64,000 nt of DNA from Kribbella antiqua (GTDB lineage Bacteria; Actinomycetota; Actinomycetes; Propionibacteriales; Kribbellaceae), in assembly GCF_004345665.1 (NCBI RefSeq), contig NZ_SLWR01000002.1:310001-374000 (forward strand), read 5' to 3'. This document shows positions 49,057 through 61,977 of this stretch, piece by piece (the first letter of the stretch is position 1; the number at the start of each line of letters is the position of its first letter). The position numbers and the translations under genes were made by a program. The notes beneath the pieces were generated by a model, which was not told the origin of the DNA, did not search any database, and worked only from the letters and a program-made list of their open reading frames with translations.

Positions 49057-50520
49057 ATGACAGCATTCCAACGCTTGAAAGACGCGCTACGCCTCATCCT
49101 GGCGGATTCCGAAGGTGACGGGCCACAGCGTTGGCACGGTACGACGGCCGCCTACCCACACAACTGGGAGGAACTGGAGTACGTCGAATACTTTTACCGC
49201 CGGGACACCATTCTCGTCCGCACCGGAGACGTCGACCTGGTGCTCTACGCACTGCGGAACGCGCCGCCGGGTGACGAAAGCGGGCCGATCATTCCCGAGG
49301 AAGTCGGGATCGATCTGCTACCCGTGATCGACGGTGTCACCGGCCTGGTGTGGCGCTACGGCCGAACCCTCGCGTCGGCGAAGTCGGGGCGGGCGAGGTA
49401 TGGCGGCAAGGAGGTCGGCCGTGGGTACGGCGAACGACCCGACGATGACGATCCACTGTCGGCACCTAACGTTCTGCGTCGCCTGGACGAGCGAGTCGGC
49501 ATCGGGACGGCGACTCCGAACCATGCGCTCCCGTTGTGCGGCAACGGGCATCCCTGTCCGGCGACGGAGCCGGCCGAGGTGCCGAGCAAGTCGGTGAGCC
49601 CGATGCCGCCGGTGAGCAGCGGGATCTGTTGCGGGAAGCACGGATGGGACGGCGACGGCGTGCTGGTCGGTGTCGTGGACGAGGGCCTGATCGAGGCTGC
49701 GCCGCTGATGTGGCCGTGGATGGCCGGCGTGCACGGTGACGCCGAGAACCCCTACGACGCAACGACCGGAGAGATCCGCCCGTATGCCTGCCACGGGACG
49801 TTCGTGGCCGGTTGTGTTCGCTGTACGGCGCCGAAGGCCGAGGTCTGCGTCAAGCGGGCAGAGCCCATTTACCTGCACGAGGACGCGGGGATGGCCTACG
49901 AGGACGAGATCATCCGGCGGATGAGCGACCTGCTCGACCTGGGCGCGGACGTCATCGTCTGCGAGTTCGACGGCAGCACCCGGCTCCATCTCCCGATGCT
50001 CACGTTCGACGCCTTCTACGACAAGCGTTTGCGCAACCTGAACGTCGTCGTGGTCGCACCGGCCGGAAATGACGACACCCGGCTGCCGACCTTCCCGGCG
50101 GCGTACTCGTGGGTGATCGGGGTCGGCGCCTTGTCCGCGGACGCCAACAGGCGCGCGTACTTCTCCAACTACGGCGGCTGGGTCGACGTCTACGCTCCCG
50201 GCGTGGACTTGGTCAACGCCTTCGCGGTCGGTGACTACACGTGTATCGAAGAGCCCCACGAGCACCGGCACTTCGAGGGAATCGCGAACTGGAGTGGTAC
50301 GTCGTTCTCGACGCCGCTGGTGGCCGGGATGATCGCGGCACGGATGTCCGCGACGGGTGAAAACGCTCCGCAGGCGGCCCAGGCATTGCTGCGGCTCGCC
50401 CGCAGCCAGGCCTTGCCGGGGGTCGGCCCCGTGCTTTTGCCACACCAGGTGTGCGGCACTCCCCGCGAACCGTGCCATGCCGGGTGCGATTGCGCGTGCG
50501 GGTGCGCGGTGTTGTCATGA
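49057..50520 (+). CDS. Subtilisin-like S8 serine peptidase with unusual N-terminal extension
   Basis: The 487-residue protein has an intact S8 triad: Asp208 (GVVDEGL), His246 (CHGTFVAG, with Phe for the usual His) and Ser416 (GTSFSTPLVAG), plus the oxyanion Asn in VAPAGND. There is no signal peptide, so it is probably intracellular, unlike most subtilisins. The first ~190 residues are not a recognisable propeptide and may bind a regulator or the CHAT partner. The C-terminus has a Cys-rich tail (residues 469-483, CHAGCDCACGCAV). It is divergent from the CHAT gene; the ribosome site GGAGGGG precedes ATG 49057. A processing cascade between the two proteases is plausible. Confidence 0.88.
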   Translation: MTAFQRLKDALRLILADSEGDGPQRWHGTTAAYPHNWEELEYVEYFYRRDTILVRTGDVDLVLYALRNAPPGDESGPIIPEEVGIDLLPVIDGVTGLVWRYGRTLASAKSGRARYGGKEVGRGYGERPDDDDPLSAPNVLRRLDERVGIGTATPNHALPLCGNGHPCPATEPAEVPSKSVSPMPPVSSGICCGKHGWDGDGVLVGVVDEGLIEAAPLMWPWMAGVHGDAENPYDATTGEIRPYACHGTFVAGCVRCTAPKAEVCVKRAEPIYLHEDAGMAYEDEIIRRMSDLLDLGADVIVCEFDGSTRLHLPMLTFDAFYDKRLRNLNVVVVAPAGNDDTRLPTFPAAYSWVIGVGALSADANRRAYFSNYGGWVDVYAPGVDLVNAFAVGDYTCIEEPHEHRHFEGIANWSGTSFSTPLVAGMIAARMSATGENAPQAAQALLRLARSQALPGVGPVLLPHQVCGTPREPCHAGCDCACGCAVLS

Positions 50521-50718: not shown

Positions 50719-50813
50719 CAGCTCACGGCAGGCGGTCAAAAATCTGCTCGTGTTCGGCGCGGATCGGCGCGTAATGTCGGCTGGGACGGGTTTCGTGCCG
50801 AGGGGGACCGATC

Positions 50814-52412
50814 GTGAGCCAGCCTGCTGCCCAGTCCGACTATCCCGACAACATCGACGCCGCCGTGCTGAAGATCGCCGGCGTGGTGGTGCTCGGGGCC
50901 ATCATGTCGATTCTCGACATCACCGTGGTCAACGTCGCCTTGCCGACCTTCCAGGACGAGTTCGGTACGCCCGAGAGTCCGATCGCCTACTCCCATGTCG
51001 CCTGGACGGTCACGGCGTACACGCTCGCGCTCGCGACCGTGATTCCGTTGACCGGCTGGGCGGCCGACCGGTTCGGCACCAAGCGGCTCTATATGACCGC
51101 GATCTTCCTGTTCACCGCCGGATCGGCGCTGTGTGCGACCGCGTCGAGCATCGACATGCTGATCGGCTTCCGCGTCCTGCAGGGACTGGGCGGCGGCATG
51201 CTGATGCCGCTCGGCATGACCATCATGACCCGGGCCGCGGGACCACACCGGATGGGCCGGCTGATGGCCATCCTCGGCGTACCGATGCTGCTCGGCCCTA
51301 TCCTGGGACCGATCCTGGGCGGCTGGCTGATCCAGGTGGCGAGCTGGCACTGGATCTTCCTGATCAACGTGCCGCTCGGCGCGATCGCGCTGGTCTACGC
51401 CTGGTTCGCGCTGGCCAAGGACAGCCCCGAGCCGTCGGAGTCGTTCGACTTCCTCGGCATGGCGCTGATGTCCCCCGGGCTCGCGCTGTTCCTCTTCGGC
51501 ATCTCCTCGCTGCCCGCCGAGGGCGGCGACTTCGGCGCGCCGCGCGTGTGGGTCTCGACGCTGATCGGCGTACTACTGATGGCGACCTTCGTCTGGCACT
51601 CCTTCCGGCCGCAGCACCCGCTGCTCGACCTCCGGCTGTTCCGCGACCGGAATCTCACCGTGTCGATCGTGACGATGTTCTTGTTCGCCGCCGCGTTCTT
51701 CGGTGGGCTCCTGCTGGTGCCGACGTACTTCCAGCAGATCCGCGGTGAGTCGACACTGCACGCGGGTCTTCTGGTCGCGCCCCAAGGACTCGGGGCCATG
51801 GTGACCATGCCGATCGCGGGGAGGCTGGTCGACAAGTTCCCGGTGGGACGCATCGCGCCCTTCGGCATCGCGCTGATCGTCGTCGGCATGTTCGGGTTGA
51901 CCCAGGTCACGGCCACCACGCCGTACCCGTTGCTGATCGGGATGCTGGTCGTGATGGGCTTCGGTATGGGCGCCACGATGATGCCGCTGTTCACCTCGGC
52001 CCTGCGGACCCTCTCCGGCGCCCAGGTCGCGCGCGGCTCGACGCTGCTCAACATCAGCCAGCAGATCGCCTCCTCGTGCGGTGTGGCGACGATGTCCGTC
52101 ATCCTCACCAACCAGCTCAACGACTCACCGATCATCCCCGGCACGCAGAGCATCCCCGGGCTGGGCGACGGACTCCGCGAGACCCAGGCGGCGATCCTGT
52201 CCAACACCCGCCCGGAGAACCTTGCCCAGCTCCACATCGACCCGGCCGCCATCGCGCGCGGGCTGGTCGACGCCGCCTCGGCGTTCTCGCACACCTACTG
52301 GGTCGCGTGGGCACTGGTCGCGCTGACCTTGGTGCCGGCCCTGATGCTCCCCCGAAAACACGAGACGACACGCCTCGTCGGCAAGGACGTGCCGCCTGCC
52401 GTGGTCGACTGA
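50814..52412 (+). CDS. DHA2-family MFS multidrug exporter (EmrB/QacA type)
   Basis: The 532-residue membrane protein has 14 predicted helices. It carries the motif D1/C region with SILDITVVNVALPTFQ in helix 1, the A motif GWAADRFGTKRLYM, and motif C GVPMLLGPILGPILGGWLI in helix 5, all typical of drug/H+ antiporters of the 14-TMS group. It probably exports toxic small molecules or an endogenous product such as the nearby lanthipeptide, though the latter is only suggested by distance. The start is a GTG at 50814. No regulator gene is adjacent. Confidence 0.92.
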   Translation: MSQPAAQSDYPDNIDAAVLKIAGVVVLGAIMSILDITVVNVALPTFQDEFGTPESPIAYSHVAWTVTAYTLALATVIPLTGWAADRFGTKRLYMTAIFLFTAGSALCATASSIDMLIGFRVLQGLGGGMLMPLGMTIMTRAAGPHRMGRLMAILGVPMLLGPILGPILGGWLIQVASWHWIFLINVPLGAIALVYAWFALAKDSPEPSESFDFLGMALMSPGLALFLFGISSLPAEGGDFGAPRVWVSTLIGVLLMATFVWHSFRPQHPLLDLRLFRDRNLTVSIVTMFLFAAAFFGGLLLVPTYFQQIRGESTLHAGLLVAPQGLGAMVTMPIAGRLVDKFPVGRIAPFGIALIVVGMFGLTQVTATTPYPLLIGMLVVMGFGMGATMMPLFTSALRTLSGAQVARGSTLLNISQQIASSCGVATMSVILTNQLNDSPIIPGTQSIPGLGDGLRETQAAILSNTRPENLAQLHIDPAAIARGLVDAASAFSHTYWVAWALVALTLVPALMLPRKHETTRLVGKDVPPAVVD

Positions 52413-52454
52413 CCGTACGGCGTTCATGGCACTGCGATCAGGAGGACTTCTTCG

Positions 52455-53441
52455 ATGACTGCCCTGCGTGTGCTCTTCCTCGGCGGGACCGGTGTGATCA
52501 GCTCGGCGTGCTCCTGGCGTGCCATCGAATCGGGGCTCGACCTGACGGTCGTCAACCGTGGCAAGACCTCGACCCGCCCACTCCCGGACGAGGCACGCCA
52601 ACTCACCGCCGACATCAACGACCCAGTGGCCTTCGCGGCCGTCGCCGCCGAGGACTTCGATGTCGTCGTCGACTGGCTGGCGTTCACGCCGGACCAGGTG
52701 CGCGCTCGCACCAATGCGCTGCGCGGACACGTCGGCCAGTACGTGTTCATCAGCTCCGCCTCGGCGTACCAAACACCACCGACCCGCCTGCCGATCACCG
52801 AGTCCACCCCATTGCGGAACCCGTTCTGGCAGTACTCGCGGAACAAGATCGCGTGCGAGGACCTCCTCACCCGGCTGTACCGCGACGAGGGCTACCCGGT
52901 GACGATCGTGCGGCCGTCCCACACCTACGACCGCACGCTGATCCCGTTCAACGGCGGCTGGACGATCGTCGAGCGGATGCGCCGCGGCCGGCCCATCGTC
53001 GTACACGGCGACGGAAGCTCGCTGTGGACCTTGACGCACCATCGCGACTTCGCCCGCGGACTGGTCCCGCTGCTCGGCCACCCGCGCACCCTCGGTGACG
53101 CCTTCCAGATCACCTCCGACGACGTCCTCACCTGGGACCAGATCGCGAACGCGCTCGCCGCCGCGGCCGGGACGTCGGCACAGATCGTCCACGTCCCGTC
53201 GGACGCCATCGCCGCCGTCAACCCCGCGTGGGGCGACAGCCTCCTCGGCGACAAGACCCATTCCGCGGTCTTCGACAACACCAAGCTCCGGCAGGTGGTC
53301 CCGGACTTCGTTGCCACCATCCCGTTCGAAACGGGTGCCCGCGAGATCATCGCCTGGCACGACGAAGACCCGGCCCGGCGCCAGATCGACCACACCATCG
53401 ACGAGGCAATGGACACCCTCATCGCCCGCTACCCGAGCTGA
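52455..53441 (+). CDS. NAD-dependent epimerase/dehydratase family protein
   Basis: The 328-residue extended SDR starts with the strand VLFLGGTGVISSACSW, where G-G-T-G-x-I-S replaces the canonical GxxGxxG, and continues with the FISSASAYQTP segment and YSRNKIACEDLL, which holds the Tyr-x-x-x-Lys pair (Y-S-R-N-K). It should oxidise or epimerise a nucleotide sugar or similar alcohol. It begins with a good AGGAGG 9 bases before ATG 52455, 42 bases after the exporter. The substrate is unknown. Confidence 0.85.
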   Translation: MTALRVLFLGGTGVISSACSWRAIESGLDLTVVNRGKTSTRPLPDEARQLTADINDPVAFAAVAAEDFDVVVDWLAFTPDQVRARTNALRGHVGQYVFISSASAYQTPPTRLPITESTPLRNPFWQYSRNKIACEDLLTRLYRDEGYPVTIVRPSHTYDRTLIPFNGGWTIVERMRRGRPIVVHGDGSSLWTLTHHRDFARGLVPLLGHPRTLGDAFQITSDDVLTWDQIANALAAAAGTSAQIVHVPSDAIAAVNPAWGDSLLGDKTHSAVFDNTKLRQVVPDFVATIPFETGAREIIAWHDEDPARRQIDHTIDEAMDTLIARYPS

Positions 53442-53478
53442 CGCGGTTTGTCGGCGTACCCGGGTAGTGTCCTGGCCT

Positions 53479-55476
53479 GTGGACGTTGGGGAGCGCATTC
53501 AGGAACTTGCCGATCAGATCGTCGTACTGCGTGACGCCTACTACCGGGGTTCGCCGACGGTGGCGGACGCGGAGTACGACGCGATCGAGGACGAGCTGCG
53601 GGCACTGATCGATGCCAAGCCGGAGCTGGCGCCCGATCCGAACCCGCTGGACCAGGTGGGTGCGCCCGCGGTGCTGCACGCGCCCGTCCGGCACTCCCGG
53701 CCGATGCTGTCACTGGAGAAGGCGACCCGCCCCGAACAGGTCGAGGCCTTCTTCAGCCGCTTTCCCGGCCAGCCGGTGGTCGTCATGCCGAAGCTGGACG
53801 GCCTGTCCCTGGCCCTGGTCTACGAGAACGGGCGGCTGGCCCGAGCGGTCACCCGCGGCGACGGGACGACCGGCGACGACGTGACCCCGCTCGTGCGGGC
53901 GCTCACCGACGGAGTTCCCGACCGGCTCGACGTACAGGATCGCACCGAGGTCCGCGGTGAGGCGGTCATGTTGCGCTCCACCTTCGCCGCCTACAACGCC
54001 GCCCACCCCGACAAGCCGTTGATCAACCCGAGAAACGCCGCCGCCGGCACGCTGCGCGCCAAGGATCCGGCCACCGTCGCCGAGCGACGTCTGCAGTTCC
54101 TGGCCTTCGACCTGCTCAGCGACCGAGACGACGCCGACGCCGATCTCGAGCGCGCGCTGCAGACGATGGGATTCACCGTCGCCGGCATGCGGCACTGCAA
54201 TGACGCCGCGGCGGCGCAGGCGGTGATCTCCACGATCGAGCAGGAACGCAACGAGCTCGACTACGACCTGGATGGCGCCGTGCTGCGGCTGGCCGATCGC
54301 AACGCCTTCGCCGCCGCGGGCACGCGCTCCAGCTCGCCGCGCGGCGCGTTGGCGTACAAGTTCGCCGCCGAGGAGAAGACGACCGTGCTGGCCGACGTGG
54401 TCTGGGACGTCGGCAAGACCGGCAAGATCGCGCCGGTCGCCTGGCTCGAGCCCGTCTTCGTCGGCGGTACGACGGTCACCCGCGCAACGCTGGCCAACCA
54501 GGAAGTGATCCGCGCCCGCGACATCAAGATCGGCGACACGGTCCTGGTACGCCGGGCTGGTGACGTGATCCCGTTCGTCGCGGGCGTCCTCGACGCGTCC
54601 AAGCGCACCGGAGCGGAGCGGGACATCGTGCCGCCGAGCGTGTGCCCGTCGTGCGAGCAGCCCCTGACCGAGCAAGGCAACAGCCGCGAACTGTTCTGCA
54701 CCAACGTCTCCTGCCCCGCCCAGACCGTACGGCGGCTGATCCACTGGGCGTCCCGGGCAGCCGCCGACATCGACGCCATCGGCGGGGTCTGGATCGAACG
54801 ACTGGCCGACGCCGGGATCCTCGAGAACCCGTCGGACTTCTACCAGCTGACCGCTGAAGAGCTGCTGAAGTTCGACCGCATCGGCGAGGTCTCGGCCGCC
54901 CGGATGATCGACTCGATCGACGCGAGCCGCCAGGTCGGCCTCCGCCGTGCTCTGATCGGCCTCGCGATCCCGATGGCGTCCGAAGGCACCGCGGCCAGGC
55001 TGTGCCGGGCCGGATTCGCCTCCCTCGAAGAGGTCGCCGACGCAGGCGTCGACGGACTCGTCGCCGTCGACGACATCGGCCAAAAGGTCGCCGCCTCATT
55101 GATCGAACACCTCGCCCGGCTACGACCCGAGCTCGAACGACTCCGCGCGGCCGGCGTCTCGCTCGACGTACGCGAGGAAGACCTGCCACCGGTCGTCGCG
55201 GCCGGTGCACCGCTGGCCGGGAAGACAGTGGTCGTCACCGGCGCCATCAGCGACCCACGCTCCGGCGAAAAGGTCGCCCGCCCGGCCTTCCAGCGACTCT
55301 GTGAGAGGGCCGGCGCGACCATCGCCTCGTCGGTCTCGGCCAGCACCGACCTGCTCATCACCGGCGCCGACGTCGGCGCCGCCAAACTCACCAAGGCCGA
55401 AAAACTCGGCGTCACCGTCGTCGACCAATCCGAGATCTGGCAACAACTCCAAGCCGCCGACCTACTCCCCCGCTGA
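53479..55476 (+). CDS. ligA: NAD-dependent DNA ligase
   Basis: The 665-residue protein has the full LigA order: domain Ia (1-60), adenylation domain with Lys105 in MPKLDGLSL as nucleotidyl acceptor and NPRNAAAGTLR, OB fold (about 310-395), Cys4 zinc finger (CPSCEQ ... CTNVSCP), helix-hairpin-helix region and a C-terminal BRCT domain starting GKTVVVTGAISD. It seals nicks using NAD. The start is a GTG at 53479. In a catabolic/accessory neighbourhood with an unusual HhH segment (GLAIPMASEGTAARL rather than the usual LGIRHVG), it may be a secondary ligase rather than the housekeeping copy; this cannot be settled without the rest of the genome. Confidence 0.92.
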   Translation: MDVGERIQELADQIVVLRDAYYRGSPTVADAEYDAIEDELRALIDAKPELAPDPNPLDQVGAPAVLHAPVRHSRPMLSLEKATRPEQVEAFFSRFPGQPVVVMPKLDGLSLALVYENGRLARAVTRGDGTTGDDVTPLVRALTDGVPDRLDVQDRTEVRGEAVMLRSTFAAYNAAHPDKPLINPRNAAAGTLRAKDPATVAERRLQFLAFDLLSDRDDADADLERALQTMGFTVAGMRHCNDAAAAQAVISTIEQERNELDYDLDGAVLRLADRNAFAAAGTRSSSPRGALAYKFAAEEKTTVLADVVWDVGKTGKIAPVAWLEPVFVGGTTVTRATLANQEVIRARDIKIGDTVLVRRAGDVIPFVAGVLDASKRTGAERDIVPPSVCPSCEQPLTEQGNSRELFCTNVSCPAQTVRRLIHWASRAAADIDAIGGVWIERLADAGILENPSDFYQLTAEELLKFDRIGEVSAARMIDSIDASRQVGLRRALIGLAIPMASEGTAARLCRAGFASLEEVADAGVDGLVAVDDIGQKVAASLIEHLARLRPELERLRAAGVSLDVREEDLPPVVAAGAPLAGKTVVVTGAISDPRSGEKVARPAFQRLCERAGATIASSVSASTDLLITGADVGAAKLTKAEKLGVTVVDQSEIWQQLQAADLLPR

Positions 55477-55528
55477 CCCCGAGCCCGGCGTTCTGTGGGC
55501 CAGGCAGCGCCGGTGCTGCATTGACGCG

Positions 55529-55544
55529 TGTGATCCAGATCACT
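55529..55544. promoter_or_regulatory. CRP/GlxR-like palindrome upstream of the lanthipeptide genes
   Basis: TGTGATCCAGATCACT fits the TGTGA-N6-TCACA consensus of CRP-family regulators with a single mismatch at the last base; the arms GTGATC and GATCAC are a perfect inverted repeat. A TATACG -10-like hexamer follows at 55553-55558 and the precursor start is at 55586. The spacing suggests that binding could control this promoter. Confidence 0.55.
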
Positions 55545-55585
55545 ACGGTGGGTATACGTATCTCGTTGCGGGGGGTGAAGTAGGC

Positions 55586-55903
55586 ATGCCCGACGATGTA
55601 GTCACCGTCAGACTGCGCCTGGCGCAGCTCGTGGCCCAAGCTGAAACAGACGAAGAGTTCCGGCAGCGACTCGCTGACGATCCGGCGGCCGTCCTGGCCG
55701 AGAACGACATTCCCGATGGTGCGGTCGACGAGTATTCGCAGGCCATTCAGGGAGTGCGCTCGAGTGCCGAAAGCTTCGAGGCGGCGGACGACGACCCGAC
55801 CAGCTGCATCCACACGGCCGGGTGCAACGACTTCACCTGCATCGCGACCATCTGCGGACCCACCTGCTTCGTGACGATCAAGATTGACGCACCTGACGCG
55901 TGA
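55586..55903 (+). CDS. Lanthipeptide precursor with NHLP-like leader
   Basis: The 105-residue peptide has a leader of about 70 residues. Its DEEFRQRLADDPAAVLAEN segment (residues 22-40) resembles nitrile-hydratase-like (NHLP) leader peptides. The core, from about residue 71, holds five cysteines (74, 80, 85, 90, 94) and Thr/Ser at 72, 73, 77, 84, 88, 93 and 97 for dehydration and ring closure. The core contains the CGPTC motif at 90-94. It is encoded directly ahead of, and overlapping, a LanL-type synthetase gene. The ATG at 55586 follows a GGGGGG ribosome site. The predicted product is a polycyclic lanthipeptide of about 25-30 residues; topology and activity are unknown. Confidence 0.85.
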   Translation: MPDDVVTVRLRLAQLVAQAETDEEFRQRLADDPAAVLAENDIPDGAVDEYSQAIQGVRSSAESFEAADDDPTSCIHTAGCNDFTCIATICGPTCFVTIKIDAPDA

Positions 55904-58541
55904 GGCAACCGACCGCTGGCTTCTGGACGCGGTAGCAAAGGCGGTCGGCGAGCGTACGAATCAGTGGCGGGTGACGCCGGCGGAAGACTCCCTGCACCCG
56001 TGGATCTTCGCGCTGCCCGCAGATACCGCGCTTCAGCAACAGGGCTGGAAGCTTCACGTCTCCAGTTATGTGTCGACGGCGGCGGAGACTCTTCGGCGCG
56101 TACTTCCTCCGCTCGTCGACGCGGGCGTCGCATTCAAGGTCGTCGGATCCGCGGCCTGGCTCGGCGGACTGAATCGAGGCTCTGCGGGGCTGTCGCAAGT
56201 CGGGAAGTTCATCACGGCCTATCCGCGCGACGACTCCTCCGCCGTGGATCTGGCGATCGCTCTGGATCAGGCCACCCGCGGCCTGCGCGGCCCGCGGATA
56301 CCATCGGATCGTCCGGTGGCTGACGGCGGTGTCGTGTTCTACCGGTACGGCGGCTTCGGCGACCTGTGCATGCAGACCCGCCTCGGTGAAGTCGTACTCG
56401 CGGTAGTCGCCCCGGACGGCCGCCTGATCCCGGATCGACGCGGTACGGCGCCCACAGCGCCGTACTGGGTGAGCGACCCGTTTCAGGCCCGCGGCCTTGG
56501 CTCGACGTACTCGCTCGGGGCGACAGTCGCGGAACGCTATCGGCCGGTGTCGATACTGGCGCGGTCGCCGGACACCGTTGTCCAGTTGGGACTTGACCTG
56601 GTCACACCACGGGTGTGCGTCCTCAAACGCGCTCGGCGACGTCCCGCGGATCACGATGTCGCCGTCGAGGACGGGGGCATCCTGCTCCGTCGCGAGGTCG
56701 AGCTTCTGCAGCGCCTGACGGGCCAGGGAGTGACGGCGACCTTGTACGACGTGGTCGAGAGCGGCGATGAATTGATCCTCGTCACCGAGGACCTGGGCGG
56801 GGAGACTCTCGACCAGCACGTGCGCAAGCTGATGACCACGGGCTCGCTGCCGTCCACCGCGCGGGTCGTGGAGCTCGCCGTAGCGATTGCCGACGCCCTC
56901 GCCGCGATCCACGACCGCGGGCACATCCACGGCGATCTCAAGTCGGCGAATGTCGTGCTCGACTCCGACGGCCGGATCAAGCTCATCGACTTCGAGCTGG
57001 CCTATGCCATCGGTTCCGGCGAGCGACCCGCAGGCGCGGGGACGCGCGGCTACGTCTCGCCCGAATGCAGGGGCGGCGCGACCGCATCGGTCTCCGACGA
57101 CATCTACGCGCTGGGAGCGGTCCTCTATCTGCTGATCACCGGCGCGGAACCGTCGCGCGCGCCGTACATCGAGAACCTGCTGGATCGACCACCCCTGCAG
57201 CTCAATCCGGAAGCCAGACGCCCGCTCATCGACGTGATGGCGCGATGTCTCAGCGCCGATCGCTACAGTTCCGCTCGCGACGTACGGCGGGCGTTGCTGG
57301 AGGCAACGGCCATGCCCGCCGACCCGCCAGGCGCGGTCACTGGGCGGCTGGTGGAGCCCGAGCGTGCCCTTGAACAGGCGCGCCGAGCAGGCGACCTCCT
57401 CTGTGCCGAGGCCGAAACCACCGACGCCGGACTGATCTGGCGCAGCAGGTACTTCGTCGGCAAGGGAATCGTCGGTCGTGACATCAACACCGGCATGGCG
57501 GGCACGATCCTCGCGCTGGCCGAGCTGGTCGACGAGTTCGGGGTGGAGACGCACCGGGACGTCCTTCGGGCCGGCGCGCGTACCCTTCAGGCCTTGCCGC
57601 CGATTCCGGGCGATCCGGCCTTCGGGCTCTATGTCGGAGACATGGGAGTCGTCGCGGCGCTTCTTCGCGCGGGCCAGGTCTTGCCGGACGACGAACTGGT
57701 CCGAGCCGCGGCCCACCGCGCGAGTCAGCACCCGGCCGCACAGCCCGATGACTCCCCCGACCTGTTCCACGGCATCGCCGGCCGCCTCTTGACCGAGCTC
57801 CTCCTCTGGGACGAAACTAGCGACGCCACGACCCTCGAGCGGGCCGTCGCGTACGGCGATGCACTCCTCGAGCGGCGCGAAGGCGGTCCCGGTGAGGCCT
57901 ACTGGCGCATCCCACCCGGGTATGCCGACCTCAGCGGCAAGAGCTACCTCGGCTACGCCCACGGAGCCGCCGGCATCGCCGACGCCCTCCTCGATCTTGC
58001 GGAGGTTACGGGAGAGCAGAAGTACGCGCGTACGGCGACCATGGCGATGGCGTGGATCACTCGCCAGGCGGTGTCTTTTCACAGCGGACTCGCCTGGCCG
58101 GCGACCGAGGGACAGCGGCCATCCCCACCCTTCTGGTGTCACGGCGCGACCGGCATCGGTCGGCTGTTCCTACACGCTCTGCCCGAGACGGCTGAGAGCC
58201 TGCAAGCGATCTGCCGCTCCGTAGCTTCGGCGGCTAGATGGGCCGGGCCGACGCTGTGCCACGGGCTGGCCGGCAACGCCGAGTTCCTCCTGGACGCCGG
58301 CCGGGCCCTGGCCGATGACGAACTACTGGTGAAGGCCAACGAGCTGATGTCGCTCGTCGACGCGTATGGGGTCGACGCCGCGGAAGGCAGGGGGTGGATC
58401 TCCGAAGCGCCTCGGCAGATCAACCCGGACTACCTGGTTGGCTTCGCCGGCATACCGCTGGTCCTGTTAAGGCTGGCCAGGCCGGACCGCCGCTACCAAC
58501 TCAGCCGTGCGGGCTTCAGGTACCGGTCGCGGCGGCCCTGA
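55884..58541 (+). CDS. Class IV (LanL-type) lanthipeptide synthetase
   Basis: The 885-residue enzyme has an N-terminal phosphoSer/Thr lyase region (about 1-230, start WKLHVSSYVS) and a kinase domain with Asp351 in HIHGDLKSANV and Asp369 in LIDFELA. A C-terminal LanC-like cyclase contains zinc ligands Cys752 (FWCHGATG), Cys792 and His793 (LCHGLAGN), plus the YAHGAAG motif. The complete zinc site distinguishes it from class III enzymes, which lack it. It phosphorylates, dehydrates and cyclises the precursor encoded just upstream. The TTG at 55884 is the only start that keeps the first conserved strand; it overlaps the precursor gene by 20 bases. No transporter or protease gene is adjacent. Confidence 0.9.
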   Translation: MTHLTREATDRWLLDAVAKAVGERTNQWRVTPAEDSLHPWIFALPADTALQQQGWKLHVSSYVSTAAETLRRVLPPLVDAGVAFKVVGSAAWLGGLNRGSAGLSQVGKFITAYPRDDSSAVDLAIALDQATRGLRGPRIPSDRPVADGGVVFYRYGGFGDLCMQTRLGEVVLAVVAPDGRLIPDRRGTAPTAPYWVSDPFQARGLGSTYSLGATVAERYRPVSILARSPDTVVQLGLDLVTPRVCVLKRARRRPADHDVAVEDGGILLRREVELLQRLTGQGVTATLYDVVESGDELILVTEDLGGETLDQHVRKLMTTGSLPSTARVVELAVAIADALAAIHDRGHIHGDLKSANVVLDSDGRIKLIDFELAYAIGSGERPAGAGTRGYVSPECRGGATASVSDDIYALGAVLYLLITGAEPSRAPYIENLLDRPPLQLNPEARRPLIDVMARCLSADRYSSARDVRRALLEATAMPADPPGAVTGRLVEPERALEQARRAGDLLCAEAETTDAGLIWRSRYFVGKGIVGRDINTGMAGTILALAELVDEFGVETHRDVLRAGARTLQALPPIPGDPAFGLYVGDMGVVAALLRAGQVLPDDELVRAAAHRASQHPAAQPDDSPDLFHGIAGRLLTELLLWDETSDATTLERAVAYGDALLERREGGPGEAYWRIPPGYADLSGKSYLGYAHGAAGIADALLDLAEVTGEQKYARTATMAMAWITRQAVSFHSGLAWPATEGQRPSPPFWCHGATGIGRLFLHALPETAESLQAICRSVASAARWAGPTLCHGLAGNAEFLLDAGRALADDELLVKANELMSLVDAYGVDAAEGRGWISEAPRQINPDYLVGFAGIPLVLLRLARPDRRYQLSRAGFRYRSRRP

Positions 58542-58545
58542 CGAG

Positions 58546-61500
58546 TCAGCCTTGGGCTTGGTGGAAGATGAAGGTGCTTCCGCCGATGAGTTCTCCCTTG
58601 GTGGTCAGTTGCTGGATGACGTAGCGCGGTGCCGTCTCGGTCTGCTGGTCGGTGCCGGTTGCCAGCAGGAGGATCTGCTCCCGGCTGTTGGCTCTGATGG
58701 TCAGCGGCAGGTCGACGTATTCCGCCGTACGGCCGACGCGGTACTGGCGGGTCAGGTCGAACGTCTTGACCAGTTGATCCCAGGACTTCTCCGGACGCAT
58801 CTCGTCCACGAGCCAGCGACTCTGCAACCGCTTCAGATCGGCGGCGGAGAACTTGGAGCTGGTCAGCCCGCGCACACCTTCGAGTTTCTGGACACGCTTG
58901 CTGAGCGCCTTGGAGAACAACATCGAAAGGCGTACGCCGGGATCGTCGAGCGAGGGCAGCCGCATCAGATGGCGCAGTTTCCGCGTGCTGGTCGCGTAGA
59001 AGTAGAACGGAATCGGGCGGAAGACACTCGGCAGCAGGTTGACGACGTGCAGGTTCTTGAGCCCGGCGCGTTTCTCGGCGGTGACCAGTTGGGCGATGTC
59101 GAACACCTTGGCCGCGGTGGGGATCGGGTCGGATGGGCTGTCGATGACCACCAGCATGCAGGTGTGGGTGTCCGCTCCGACCGGCGGCGTCCAGTTCCAT
59201 TCGAGTACGGTCGGTCGCAGCGGCTCGAGCGTCGCGATCGTCTGGGGCGAACCGACGGCCGTCCAGTTGGCGTCGCCGGGACTGTTCGGCCAGGTGGTCC
59301 AGAAGTCGGCGGGCAGGTCGGGAAGTCCCGCTGATGCTCCCGCCACCATGATTTTCACGGTCACGTCGGCGGCGGCGACCGGTCCACGGTTGTGCACCTG
59401 CACGTAGACCCGGTTCTGGTTGCCGGCCTCGGGACTCTCGTGCACGAGTTTGGTCTCGAAGGTCAGGTAGTTCACCTCGGTGGGCTGCAACTGCCAGTTC
59501 GGTGGCGCGTCGGTCTTGATGTCGGCGCATTCCCACCAGTAGCACGCGTCGTCGAGGTCGACGTACCGCGTCGGATCCTTCCAGGCAGCGGTGGCGGTCC
59601 CGCTCGGAGCGCGGCCGCTGTCCATGACGTGGTCGCGCACGAACAGGTCGACCAGCGGCTGCGTGGTCAGATCGGTCCGGATCTCCCACAAGCCACGTCC
59701 ATGCGTTGCCGCGCGCAACAGATTTCCACCCGTACGGCGGCGCAGGTCGTAGATGGCCGTGTTCGGCAACCCCTGCGAGTAGTTCACCCAGCTCGTCCCG
59801 CAGTTGGTCGTACGGAACACGCCGATGTCGGTGCCCACGAACCATTCGGTGGTGCTCGCCAGGCTCAGCGCGTACATCGGTACGTCGGGGAGGCCACCGC
59901 TGACCGCCGTCCAGGTCGCCGTACCCGAGGCGGGCACAGTGCCGCGCCAGACATGGTTGGCGAGGCCGAACCCGCTGAACGCGACCACGACGGTGTTGTC
60001 GTCGCCGGGAAGGCTGTGGACGTCCCAGATCCACTGAGCGGTGGGCAGCGGCGCGGCATGCAGTACGCGCGCCGTCCACGTCCCGCCGGACAGGTCGAGG
60101 CGATAGACCTGCCCACTGGTCGTCGCGCAGTAGATGAGCGAGTCGTTCGAGAACGACACCGCCGACACTCTCCCGATGATCCCGGGTAGCCCCACTCCGG
60201 AACCGGGCCAGCCGCCGTTGCCCATCGCGTCGTCGATGTTGATCACATTGGTTGCCCACGCCAACCGTTCCGAGTTCGGGCTGATCGCGGCCGGCGGATA
60301 GAACAGGCCGTTGCCGTTCAACCCGGTGGAGACCGGGACATAGGTTCCGAACTCACCGCCCGCCGTGCTCAGCCTGGGCGTGTTCGAGAAGAACGAGTGG
60401 GTCAGGTTGTTGCCGTTCACCTTGCTGATCACGCAGTAACCGCCGTCGCCGTCCGCGCTGTGATAGTGGACCGCGCTGTTGCGGTACTGCTGGGTGCCGT
60501 TGTCCTGCGTGCCGCACTGAACGAGCGCGTCCGACACCGGATGGTTGTCGATCGCCTCGTACTGCATGAGGCACAGGCCCTCGTTGGGCGTGTCGTCCCA
60601 CGTCGTCCCGCCGTCGGAGCTGAGGAAGAACCCGCCGTCGTTGCCGCTGTAGATCCGCTGGTTCAGCGTTGGGTGGAAGCCGAACGTGTGGCTGTCGGGG
60701 TGGATGTCGCCCCCGATGTTGGCGACGCTCCAGGTGTTGGTGACCGTGTTGCGCTGGCACTTGTACAGCTCGACACCGCTGACGTAGACGACGTCGGGAG
60801 TGGTCGGATCGACGTTGACGTCGCTGGTGAATGCGCCGAACAGCTGGATGGTCGGGCTGTCGGTGCACAGCTGCCACGTCGTTCCTGCGGCCGAACTCGT
60901 TCGGTATACGCCCAGGAAGGTGTCGTCGTTCTTCGCGATCAGCGCGTACTTGTGGGCCGGGCTGCTGGCCGACTGCTTCAAGCTGATGCGGCTCGTGGAT
61001 GACCCGGTCGGCAGACCGTTGGTCAGCTGCGTGAACGTGGGGTTGGCGGCTAGTGCGTTCGTACTGCGGTAGATGCCGCTACCGAAGAAGGCCGCGTACA
61101 CAGTGTTTCCCGTGGCGTCACCAGTGTCGACCAGTACGTCGGTACACGCGATGACGGATGCCGAGATCGCCGGAAGACCGCCACCTGACAATGCTGTCCA
61201 GGTGACGCCGTCGAGCGTCCGGCACAGCCCACGACTCGTCGCTGCGAAGGCGTGGTTGGCGTCGGCGCGATCGACCGCGATCCGGTAGAAGCTGTGGTTG
61301 GCGAGCAGCGCCGTACCGTTGTTCACCCACGTCGTACCGCCGTCGCTGCTGCGCACGACGCCGATACCGAGGTAGACACCGGGGGCGGAGTTCAACGCGA
61401 AGGCTGTGCTGTAGAGCTGCACGTTGCCTTCGCCGGTGCCGGCGTAGAGAACCTGCGGGTTGTCGACGCCGATGGCCAGTGCGCCGATGGCGAGCGAGGG

Positions 61501-61977
61501 CTGGTCGTCGCCGAGGGCTGCCCAGGTTTGACCGCCGTCGTCCGTTCGCCACACGCCGCCGCGGCTGGTGCCGATGTAGATCGTGTCGCCGTTGGTGGGG
61601 TGTGGTGCGATCGCGGTCACGCGGCCGCTGATCAGCACGCGAGCGCCGCCGTACGTCTGTCCGTTCGGCACGGCCAGCGGGCCCAACGGGGTCCAGTTGG
61701 GCAGCGCCGCATTCACCGGCATGCCGAGCGGACCGGCGTCGACGGCCTCCGGTCCGACGGCGTCCCGCGCTTGCAGGGCTTGCAGCCTCAGCAGCGCGGG
61801 GTTCTCCTCCGGTGGCACGGCCGCCACGGCGGCAGCGCCCAACTCCTCGGACTCATCCACGTGCACCGCGGCGAAGTCGAGGGCGAAACGCCCCACCAGT
61901 TTCTTGGTGTCCTTCTTCGGCCGCCGGCGAGCGGCGGTTGCTTTCCTGGCTGCTGTCTTCTTCGTTGCGGGGCTCAC
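58546..61977 (-). CDS. Large Asp-box/VPS10-like propeller protein with histone-like N-terminus
   Basis: The 1,143-residue protein starts with about 25 residues that are Lys/Arg/Ala-rich (KKTAARKATAARRRPKKDTK), like an actinobacterial histone-H1-type tail. A beta-propeller region over about 75-790 follows, with Asp-box motifs such as RTDDGGQTW, RSSDGGTTW and LSSDGGTTW of the VPS10/sialidase type. A C-terminal region follows of about 350 residues with an Ig-like domain and a helix-rich segment. There is no signal peptide, so it is probably cytosolic. Function unknown; a binding scaffold is suggested. It is co-transcribed with the small membrane-protein gene upstream and its end is 4 bases from the convergent LanL gene. 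Confidence 0.7.
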   Translation of the reverse strand: MSPATKKTAARKATAARRRPKKDTKKLVGRFALDFAAVHVDESEELGAAAVAAVPPEENPALLRLQALQARDAVGPEAVDAGPLGMPVNAALPNWTPLGPLAVPNGQTYGGARVLISGRVTAIAPHPTNGDTIYIGTSRGGVWRTDDGGQTWAALGDDQPSLAIGALAIGVDNPQVLYAGTGEGNVQLYSTAFALNSAPGVYLGIGVVRSSDGGTTWVNNGTALLANHSFYRIAVDRADANHAFAATSRGLCRTLDGVTWTALSGGGLPAISASVIACTDVLVDTGDATGNTVYAAFFGSGIYRSTNALAANPTFTQLTNGLPTGSSTSRISLKQSASSPAHKYALIAKNDDTFLGVYRTSSAAGTTWQLCTDSPTIQLFGAFTSDVNVDPTTPDVVYVSGVELYKCQRNTVTNTWSVANIGGDIHPDSHTFGFHPTLNQRIYSGNDGGFFLSSDGGTTWDDTPNEGLCLMQYEAIDNHPVSDALVQCGTQDNGTQQYRNSAVHYHSADGDGGYCVISKVNGNNLTHSFFSNTPRLSTAGGEFGTYVPVSTGLNGNGLFYPPAAISPNSERLAWATNVINIDDAMGNGGWPGSGVGLPGIIGRVSAVSFSNDSLIYCATTSGQVYRLDLSGGTWTARVLHAAPLPTAQWIWDVHSLPGDDNTVVVAFSGFGLANHVWRGTVPASGTATWTAVSGGLPDVPMYALSLASTTEWFVGTDIGVFRTTNCGTSWVNYSQGLPNTAIYDLRRRTGGNLLRAATHGRGLWEIRTDLTTQPLVDLFVRDHVMDSGRAPSGTATAAWKDPTRYVDLDDACYWWECADIKTDAPPNWQLQPTEVNYLTFETKLVHESPEAGNQNRVYVQVHNRGPVAAADVTVKIMVAGASAGLPDLPADFWTTWPNSPGDANWTAVGSPQTIATLEPLRPTVLEWNWTPPVGADTHTCMLVVIDSPSDPIPTAAKVFDIAQLVTAEKRAGLKNLHVVNLLPSVFRPIPFYFYATSTRKLRHLMRLPSLDDPGVRLSMLFSKALSKRVQKLEGVRGLTSSKFSAADLKRLQSRWLVDEMRPEKSWDQLVKTFDLTRQYRVGRTAEYVDLPLTIRANSREQILLLATGTDQQTETAPRYVIQQLTTKGELIGGSTFIFHQAQG

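Follow-up and report, generated by a model that had tools for sequence, protein, structure and literature searches.

A precursor gene overlapped by a lanthionine synthetase gene

We analysed a 64,000-nucleotide stretch of the Kribbella antiqua genome (contig NZ_SLWR01000002.1, positions 310,001 to 374,000; hereafter the window), in which a precursor peptide gene and a gene for a class IV-type lanthionine synthetase overlap on the forward strand. The precursor gene (55586..55903) starts with ATG and encodes 105 residues; the synthetase gene (55884..58541) starts with TTG and encodes 885 residues. A two-gene lanthipeptide locus with the synthetase starting on this TTG inside the precursor gene had been proposed from the sequence (the original prediction), and both genes are indeed present and share 20 nt. 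The TTG is the first start codon past an in-frame stop and the residues conserved in relatives begin at W12 of the synthetase, so no later start fits well. The overlap suggests that translation of the two genes may be coupled, and tight spacing recurs in relatives: precursor and synthetase overlap by 8 nt in locus L007, and in L094, where the gene order is reversed, the two genes overlap at ATGA. No RNA element was found at Rfam gathering thresholds within 54900-59500.

The synthetase carries a phospho-Ser/Thr lyase domain (RamC_N, 55989..56489; Pfam PF25816, E-value 1.6e-47), a protein kinase domain (56619..57158; PF00069, 1.8e-27) with Lys248, Asp351 and Asp369 at the positions taken as catalytic, and a LanC-like cyclase domain (LANC_like, 57474..58490; PF05147, 1.3e-41). 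Alignment places the zinc ligands at Cys752 (58137..58139), Cys792 and His793 (58257..58262), in agreement with the proposed LanL-like enzyme with kinase, lyase and zinc-complete cyclase. The NCBIfam LanL model NF038150 gives 577 bits (cut-off 650), well above the 360 bits of the class III model (NF038151, LanKC). Assignment to class III (LanKC) was rejected because of the zinc ligands in the cyclase, and assignment to class II because of the absence of the LanM dehydratase domain (DUF4135) among the Pfam matches of the synthetase. In an AlphaFold model (mean predicted local distance difference test score, pLDDT, 75) the best fold matches are to the class IV enzyme CuvL (8cav/8car), followed by class III enzymes. 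The whole-chain superposition on CuvL is loose (template modelling score about 0.54, root-mean-square deviation 13 Å), and the match therefore supports only the domain make-up. A plasmid collection contained no close relative of the synthetase, the best match being 32% identical over 94% of the query.

Short patterns taken from the synthetase and searched in species genomes returned three relatives with 61% synthetase identity, two from Streptomyces and one from Kitasatospora, and two from Chloroflexota with 35-36% identity; a precursor gene lies upstream of the synthetase gene in all five. Homologues of the window precursor stand beside the synthetase in L005, L006 and L007, and the precursors of four relatives are 62, 62, 55 and 54% identical to it. 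The ratio of nonsynonymous to synonymous change (dN/dS) is 0.22-0.26 in the four precursor pairs that include the window and 0.23-0.54 in the other six; dN is below dS in every one of the 10 pairs that the five close precursors (window and relatives) form, which indicates that the precursor gene is under purifying selection.

A conserved cysteine- and threonine-rich core

The core region (residues 72-105, 55799..55900) contains five Cys (74, 80, 85, 90 and 94) and seven Ser/Thr (72, 73, 77, 84, 88, 93 and 97), the counts originally given. The window and three actinobacterial relatives have the motif C-[NS]-D-F-T-C-x4-C-G-P-T-C-[YF]-[IV]-T in common, L094 and L217 keep the variant C-T-D-T-T-C-x4-C-P-G-T-C, and the pattern C-x-D-x-T-C-x4-C-x2-T-C-x2-T is common to most of the seven actinobacterial loci. 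Cores with five Cys occur in the window and the first L007 precursor, those with four in L005, L006 and the second L007 precursor. The latter (L007:8798-9055, reverse strand, Kitasatospora) is divergently oriented and lies beside the five-Cys locus, perhaps as part of a two-peptide system.

This conserved core makes a new polycyclic scaffold plausible as the product. Alternatively, the enzyme could be a LanL whose product is not a set of lanthionine and methyllanthionine ((Me)Lan) rings and instead contains disulfides, labionin or partly free Cys. This would fit the first core Cys of the four-Cys variants, which has no Ser/Thr shortly before it, the fact that T-C pairs cannot easily close on themselves, and the lack of zinc ligands in L209, a member of the synthetase branch delineated below. 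We nevertheless consider such a product rather unlikely, since 13 of the 14 examined branch rows, all except L209, retain the zinc ligands and since the core Cys and Thr positions are conserved together from the window through L094 and L217.

A truncated NHLP-like leader

Residues 12-41 of the precursor (55619..55708) resemble nitrile hydratase-like leader peptides (NHLPs). Four NCBIfam models of the NHLP clan match at residues about 11-41, one of them reaching residue 69, all below their curated cut-offs: NF038399 (E = 6e-6), TIGR04351 (9e-6), TIGR03793 (9e-5) and TIGR04509. Much weaker Pfam matches (Frankia_peptide, NHase_alpha and DurB-like, E 0.002-0.1) agree with these; unrelated weak Pfam matches such as Keratin_B2_2 occur too. 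With NCBIfam, the window precursor matches none of the VenA, SflA and ALQxL families, which some control precursors do match. In a low-confidence fold model (mean pLDDT 53.5) the leader is helical within residues 3-61 and the core is unstructured.

The locus could be an ordinary class IV locus whose short acidic, helical leader segment came to look NHLP-like by convergence. Leaders of classes III and IV are regarded as helical as well, and the match extends over no more than some 28-30 positions and stays under the curated cut-offs. We consider this improbable in view of the profile comparisons. As NHLP reference we used L042, a genuine NHLP cluster in genome G364 that was the third match of the precursor search. 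Aligned with hhalign, the window precursor alignment matches this reference with 91.8% probability over 28 columns. For two sets of ordinary class IV precursors, the probabilities are only 0.7% and 0.3% when compared with the NHLP reference, and 3.5% and 1.0% when compared with the window alignment. These values indicate that the likeness of the leader to NHLPs is more than chance. L042 itself is a cluster of three NHLP-type precursors whose tails are hydrophobic and whose leader is followed by a conserved Cys; no LanL was seen in the 2.8 kb piece around it.

The original prediction had named an NHLP-type leader, to be checked against NHLP and LanL leader profiles. The similarity stands over residues about 12-41, with the NHLP models matching below cut-off and the VenA, SflA and ALQxL families giving no match. 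The full NHLP type does not stand: the second half of the profile is missing, and the window precursor has no Gly-Gly cleavage site before the core. By these profiles the leader is a truncated NHLP-like one, and 'NHLP-like segment' is therefore the more fitting term.

The pairing follows one branch of synthetases

The survey comprised 1982 genome look-ups, some genomes being looked up more than once. Among 394 genomes of the window's class, 27 places score at least 506 bits for LanL (at most two places were scored per genome), and an NHLP-like precursor is found at three of them: the window, G169 and G180. Eight precursors from other places give one match to VenA, two to SflA, one to ALQxL and none to an NHLP model. 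Eight of the 39 synthetases in a first tree have NHLP-like precursors, and one branch (support 100/100) divides these eight from all others. Extended trees keep this branch with 14 of 40 rows (100/100) and 14 of 38 rows (98/99); every synthetase with such a precursor that was placed in a tree belongs to it. Class III enzymes and the class IV enzymes associated with VenA or SflA lie outside it. With the exception of L209, the zinc-less rows make up a supported group of their own; in these trees, whose root is not fixed, the NHLP branch joins neither of the two other LanL groups. L095 (G071) scores 652 against the LanL cut-off of 650, yet lacks the zinc ligands and groups with zinc-less class III-like rows; NF038150 may therefore misname some enzymes.

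The 40-row tree leaves out the near-copies L077, L078, L083, L102 and L104 and does not contain L213-L217. The 38-row tree further leaves out the near-copies L215, L100, L101, L076, L081, L089, L005 and L009, and adds L213-L217 except L215. L098 (G161, 506 bits) is in no tree, and its piece is part of the leader scan.

A leader model was built from six branch loci and two genuine NHLPs; two further branch loci, L006 and L009, are near-copies. Applied to the small open reading frames (ORFs) of 138 pieces, it matches only in branch loci and the genuine NHLP cluster. A later search with the synthetase profile covered 350 Chloroflexota genomes and 296 genomes of the window's phylum. It yielded new branch-like synthetases scoring at least 894 in G973, G1150, G1090, G1097 (two), G1062 and G1196 (1168), the next scores being 603 or lower; a split synthetase gene was also found in G1150 (518). 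NHLP-like precursors are present in all eight later loci (L206-L212 and L217), found after the pairing had been seen in eight synthetases. Four lower-scoring Chloroflexota loci (L213-L216) have no NHLP-like precursor, and three of the four have short leaders of another type. G1196 (L217) has two tandem synthetases with a candidate precursor each, one of which has the L094 core type.

When 218 pieces were scanned, leader-model matches came only from branch loci and L042, and all 16 branch loci gave a match, L217 being recovered in a scan with ORFs cut to 150 aa. No leader match at E up to 0.05 came from the 65 pieces whose class III/IV-type synthetase lies outside the branch; these represent 64 distinct places, and 29 of the pieces have flanks of only about 1.5 kb. 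The survey for co-occurrence that had been suggested thus finds the pairing in 16 of 16 branch loci and at none of the 64 other places, and a synthetase lacking such a precursor, named in advance as the refuting case, does not occur among the 16 branch loci. The restriction of the pairing to one synthetase branch, and its recurrence in eight of eight loci outside the leader model, argue further against convergence in an ordinary class IV locus. By these trees and scans, the pairing of an NHLP-like precursor with a class IV-type synthetase is recurrent in a distinct branch across two bacterial phyla.

Seven NCBIfam families match branch precursors, and VenA, SflA and ALQxL are not among them; at E up to 0.01, NF038399 matches 20 of the 29 branch precursors, TIGR04509 15 and TIGR03793 14. 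The precursor alignment omits the weak ORFs L210 3203-3646 and L207 12908-13177 and one L208 duplicate, and includes the second L217 precursor.

Branch members are rare within taxa. Only one of 38 genomes of the window's genus has one (1975 bits; next best 263), and G169 and G180 are likewise the only carriers among 35 genomes of the former's family and 392 genomes of the latter's genus (G180, 1152 bits; next best 525).

Precursor arrays and accessory genes in Chloroflexota

In Chloroflexota, one synthetase is accompanied by as many as seven candidate precursor ORFs (L210, the seventh weak at E 0.017), and L211 has five. The motif [DE]-V-x-G-Y precedes the core in 20 of 23 distinct Chloroflexota precursor candidates. 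NHLP and Nif11 leaders carry V-x-G-G, and the motif in the place where these have it also speaks against a merely convergent leader. The cores vary by locus, with C-T-V-T-C-I-L-T-x-C-T-I-T-S-L types in L211 and others in L210.

A compact S8 subtilase, 59-67% identical to that of L209, lies near the synthetase in all nine loci (L008, L009 and L206-L212), a GAF-type protein in eight of them (not L207), and a major facilitator superfamily (MFS) exporter in five (L009 and L208-L211), some pieces ending early. Six of the subtilases, one GAF and three MFS proteins were run against Pfam. The subtilase near all nine synthetases makes it likely that a dedicated serine protease cleaves the leader in Chloroflexota. 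At E 1e-10, seven actinobacterial pieces (the window, L005, L006, L007, L094, L097 and L217) contain no operon-type subtilase, GAF protein or MFS exporter, and four non-branch Chloroflexota pieces contain no subtilase or GAF homologue; the non-branch loci L214 and L215 give distant MFS matches (23-25%).

L209 (5923-8724, forward strand) belongs to the zinc-bearing branch and has lost the ligands, with V and N in place of both Cys and the His kept; its two precursors have Cys-poor cores. L208 (4755-7470, reverse strand) has a two-frame synthetase beside two precursor ORFs with a common 74-residue sequence ending in FDSWGCV, like L008 and L009.

Interpretation

We read the window locus, with a probability of roughly 80%, as a minimal class IV lanthipeptide locus belonging to a distinct LanL branch that acts on precursors with an NHLP-like helical leader. 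Both cistrons would be translated together, and the overlap should keep the two proteins in proportion. The synthetase would bind the helical leader at residues about 12-41, its kinase would phosphorylate core Ser/Thr and its lyase would eliminate the phosphate to give dehydroalanine and dehydrobutyrine. The zinc cyclase would then add core Cys thiols, forming several (Me)Lan rings around the conserved C-D-F-T-C...C-G-P-T-C core, and a protease encoded elsewhere would remove the leader to release a possibly bioactive peptide.

Several points weigh against this interpretation. The precursor misses the curated cut-offs (22.3 against 50.9 for TIGR03793, 26.2 against 40 for NF038399), and the NHLP matches inspected singly are all below theirs; the leader covers only the first half of the NHLP profile, and the hhalign comparison rests on few sequences. 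The synthetase falls short of the LanL equivalog cut-off, which is a curated naming threshold and not a functional feature. Within the branch, nine of 29 precursors are unmatched by NF038399 at E 0.01, the L094 leader match is weak (E 0.013) and the second L217 precursor was recognised as NHLP-like by eye only, not by the leader model. L217_b and L097 are on long branches (L217_b very long), and the L208 synthetase, split into two frames, is in no tree. Simple scans found no sigma-70-like promoter or terminator at the locus. This last result, the TTG start and the single occurrence among 38 genus genomes could also mean that the locus is inactive or decaying in Kribbella antiqua, which we regard as very improbable since both frames are intact, the kinase and zinc residues are kept and synonymous changes are well above replacement changes relative to the precursors of all four relatives.

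The locus is like known class IV systems (venezuelin VenA/VenL, SflA and SgbA/SgbL, with a structure for CuvL) in that a single lyase-kinase-zinc cyclase synthetase adjoins a small precursor gene, and the ven cluster, as described in the part of the report consulted, also has no protease gene (Goto 2010, PMC2843593). Unlike known class IV precursors, that of the window has a longer, NHLP-like leader outside the VenA, SflA and ALQxL families. Its synthetase branch is separate from known class IV, with a zinc set of C/C/H as in the VenA-associated group, versus C/C/C in the SflA-associated one. Class III enzymes are similar in their RamC-like lyase, kinase and LanC-like domain; LanKC is described without zinc ligands in the sections consulted (PMC7296275), whereas those of the window synthetase are intact and the trees separate both groups.

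NHLP-related leaders guiding lanthionine formation are known from class II, where families II 2, 13, 17, 25 and 29 carry them (Walker 2020, PMC7268733, consulted in part). The class II synthetase is a LanM, whereas the window locus has a kinase and lyase instead of the LanM dehydratase, and no Gly-Gly site. Proteusins and other NHLP-containing ribosomally synthesised and post-translationally modified peptides, in which for example YcaO or LanM-type enzymes act on NHLP precursors (excerpts of PMC10676384 and PMC12455567), likewise show an NHLP-clan leader recruited by an unrelated modifying enzyme. By comparison, the LanL-type synthetase is the only modifying enzyme seen at the window locus and about half of the NHLP profile is matched. 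We found no report of an NHLP leader paired with a class IV enzyme in the literature searched, in part and without supplements, which leaves priority unproven. According to the portion consulted of PMC10885120, AplP-like enzymes whose genes lie elsewhere can remove class III and class IV leaders.

We rate the pairing as a new variant of class IV lanthipeptide biosynthesis, its product chemistry being a prediction. A wider scenario, to which we would give even odds, is that a separate kinase-lyase-zinc-cyclase lineage adopted NHLP-clan leaders. In Chloroflexota, one synthetase would serve arrays of as many as seven precursors whose leaders are conserved while their cores vary, with its own compact subtilase cutting near V-x-G-Y and in some loci an MFS exporter, a prochlorosin-like logic reached independently in class IV. 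The window would be the stripped-down, two-gene actinobacterial form, making one conserved polycyclic product. NHLP leaders are common to unrelated modifying enzymes and are therefore modular handles for engineering; a class IV synthetase using one would add kinase-lyase dehydration to the toolbox, and swaps between VenL-like and NHLP-type LanLs would make leader recognition testable. With the Chloroflexota arrays, class IV would reach a phylum unlisted in a 2025 review, which in the sections consulted gives class IV in Actinobacteria and Firmicutes only (PMC12328550), and the arrays may show many-substrate behaviour; a Chondromyces class IV example is also on record (PMC9576775, consulted in part). 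For isolating a product, the conserved core of the actinobacterial loci offers a concrete target.

Genomic neighbourhood of the window locus

The locus lies directly behind ligA. Alignments to 29 sister pieces all end within 14 nt of the ligA stop codon, which suggests that the window locus was acquired locally.

The original prediction held that no protease or transporter is linked. A search of the whole window with the operon subtilase, GAF and MFS proteins returned nothing at E 1e-10, in line with that claim. As a qualification, genes for a subtilase (49057-50520) and an MFS transporter (50814-52412) are present 3-6.5 kb upstream. We rejected these two as protease and exporter of the locus because both have counterparts in sister genomes without it. 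The subtilase family occurs in 20 of 38 genus genomes (its own included), in some at only 48-52% identity, and in 10 of 29 compared sister pieces, from genomes without the locus, the MFS gene is a neighbour of ligA. Compared with the Chloroflexota operon, the window subtilase has 25% identity and the window MFS protein gives no meaningful match. The window genome has five Peptidase_M1 places, the family to which we take AplP to belong; this is compatible with leader removal from elsewhere and not specific.

Directly downstream, a convergent gene (58546-61977, reverse strand) encodes a 1143-aa protein with a weak, sub-cut-off sortilin/VPS10-like match; it is not evidently linked to the locus. 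The junction 3' of ligA (window 50766-55490) varies within the genus, the MFS gene following ligA in G020, G033, G010 and G002 and preceding it in six other pieces.

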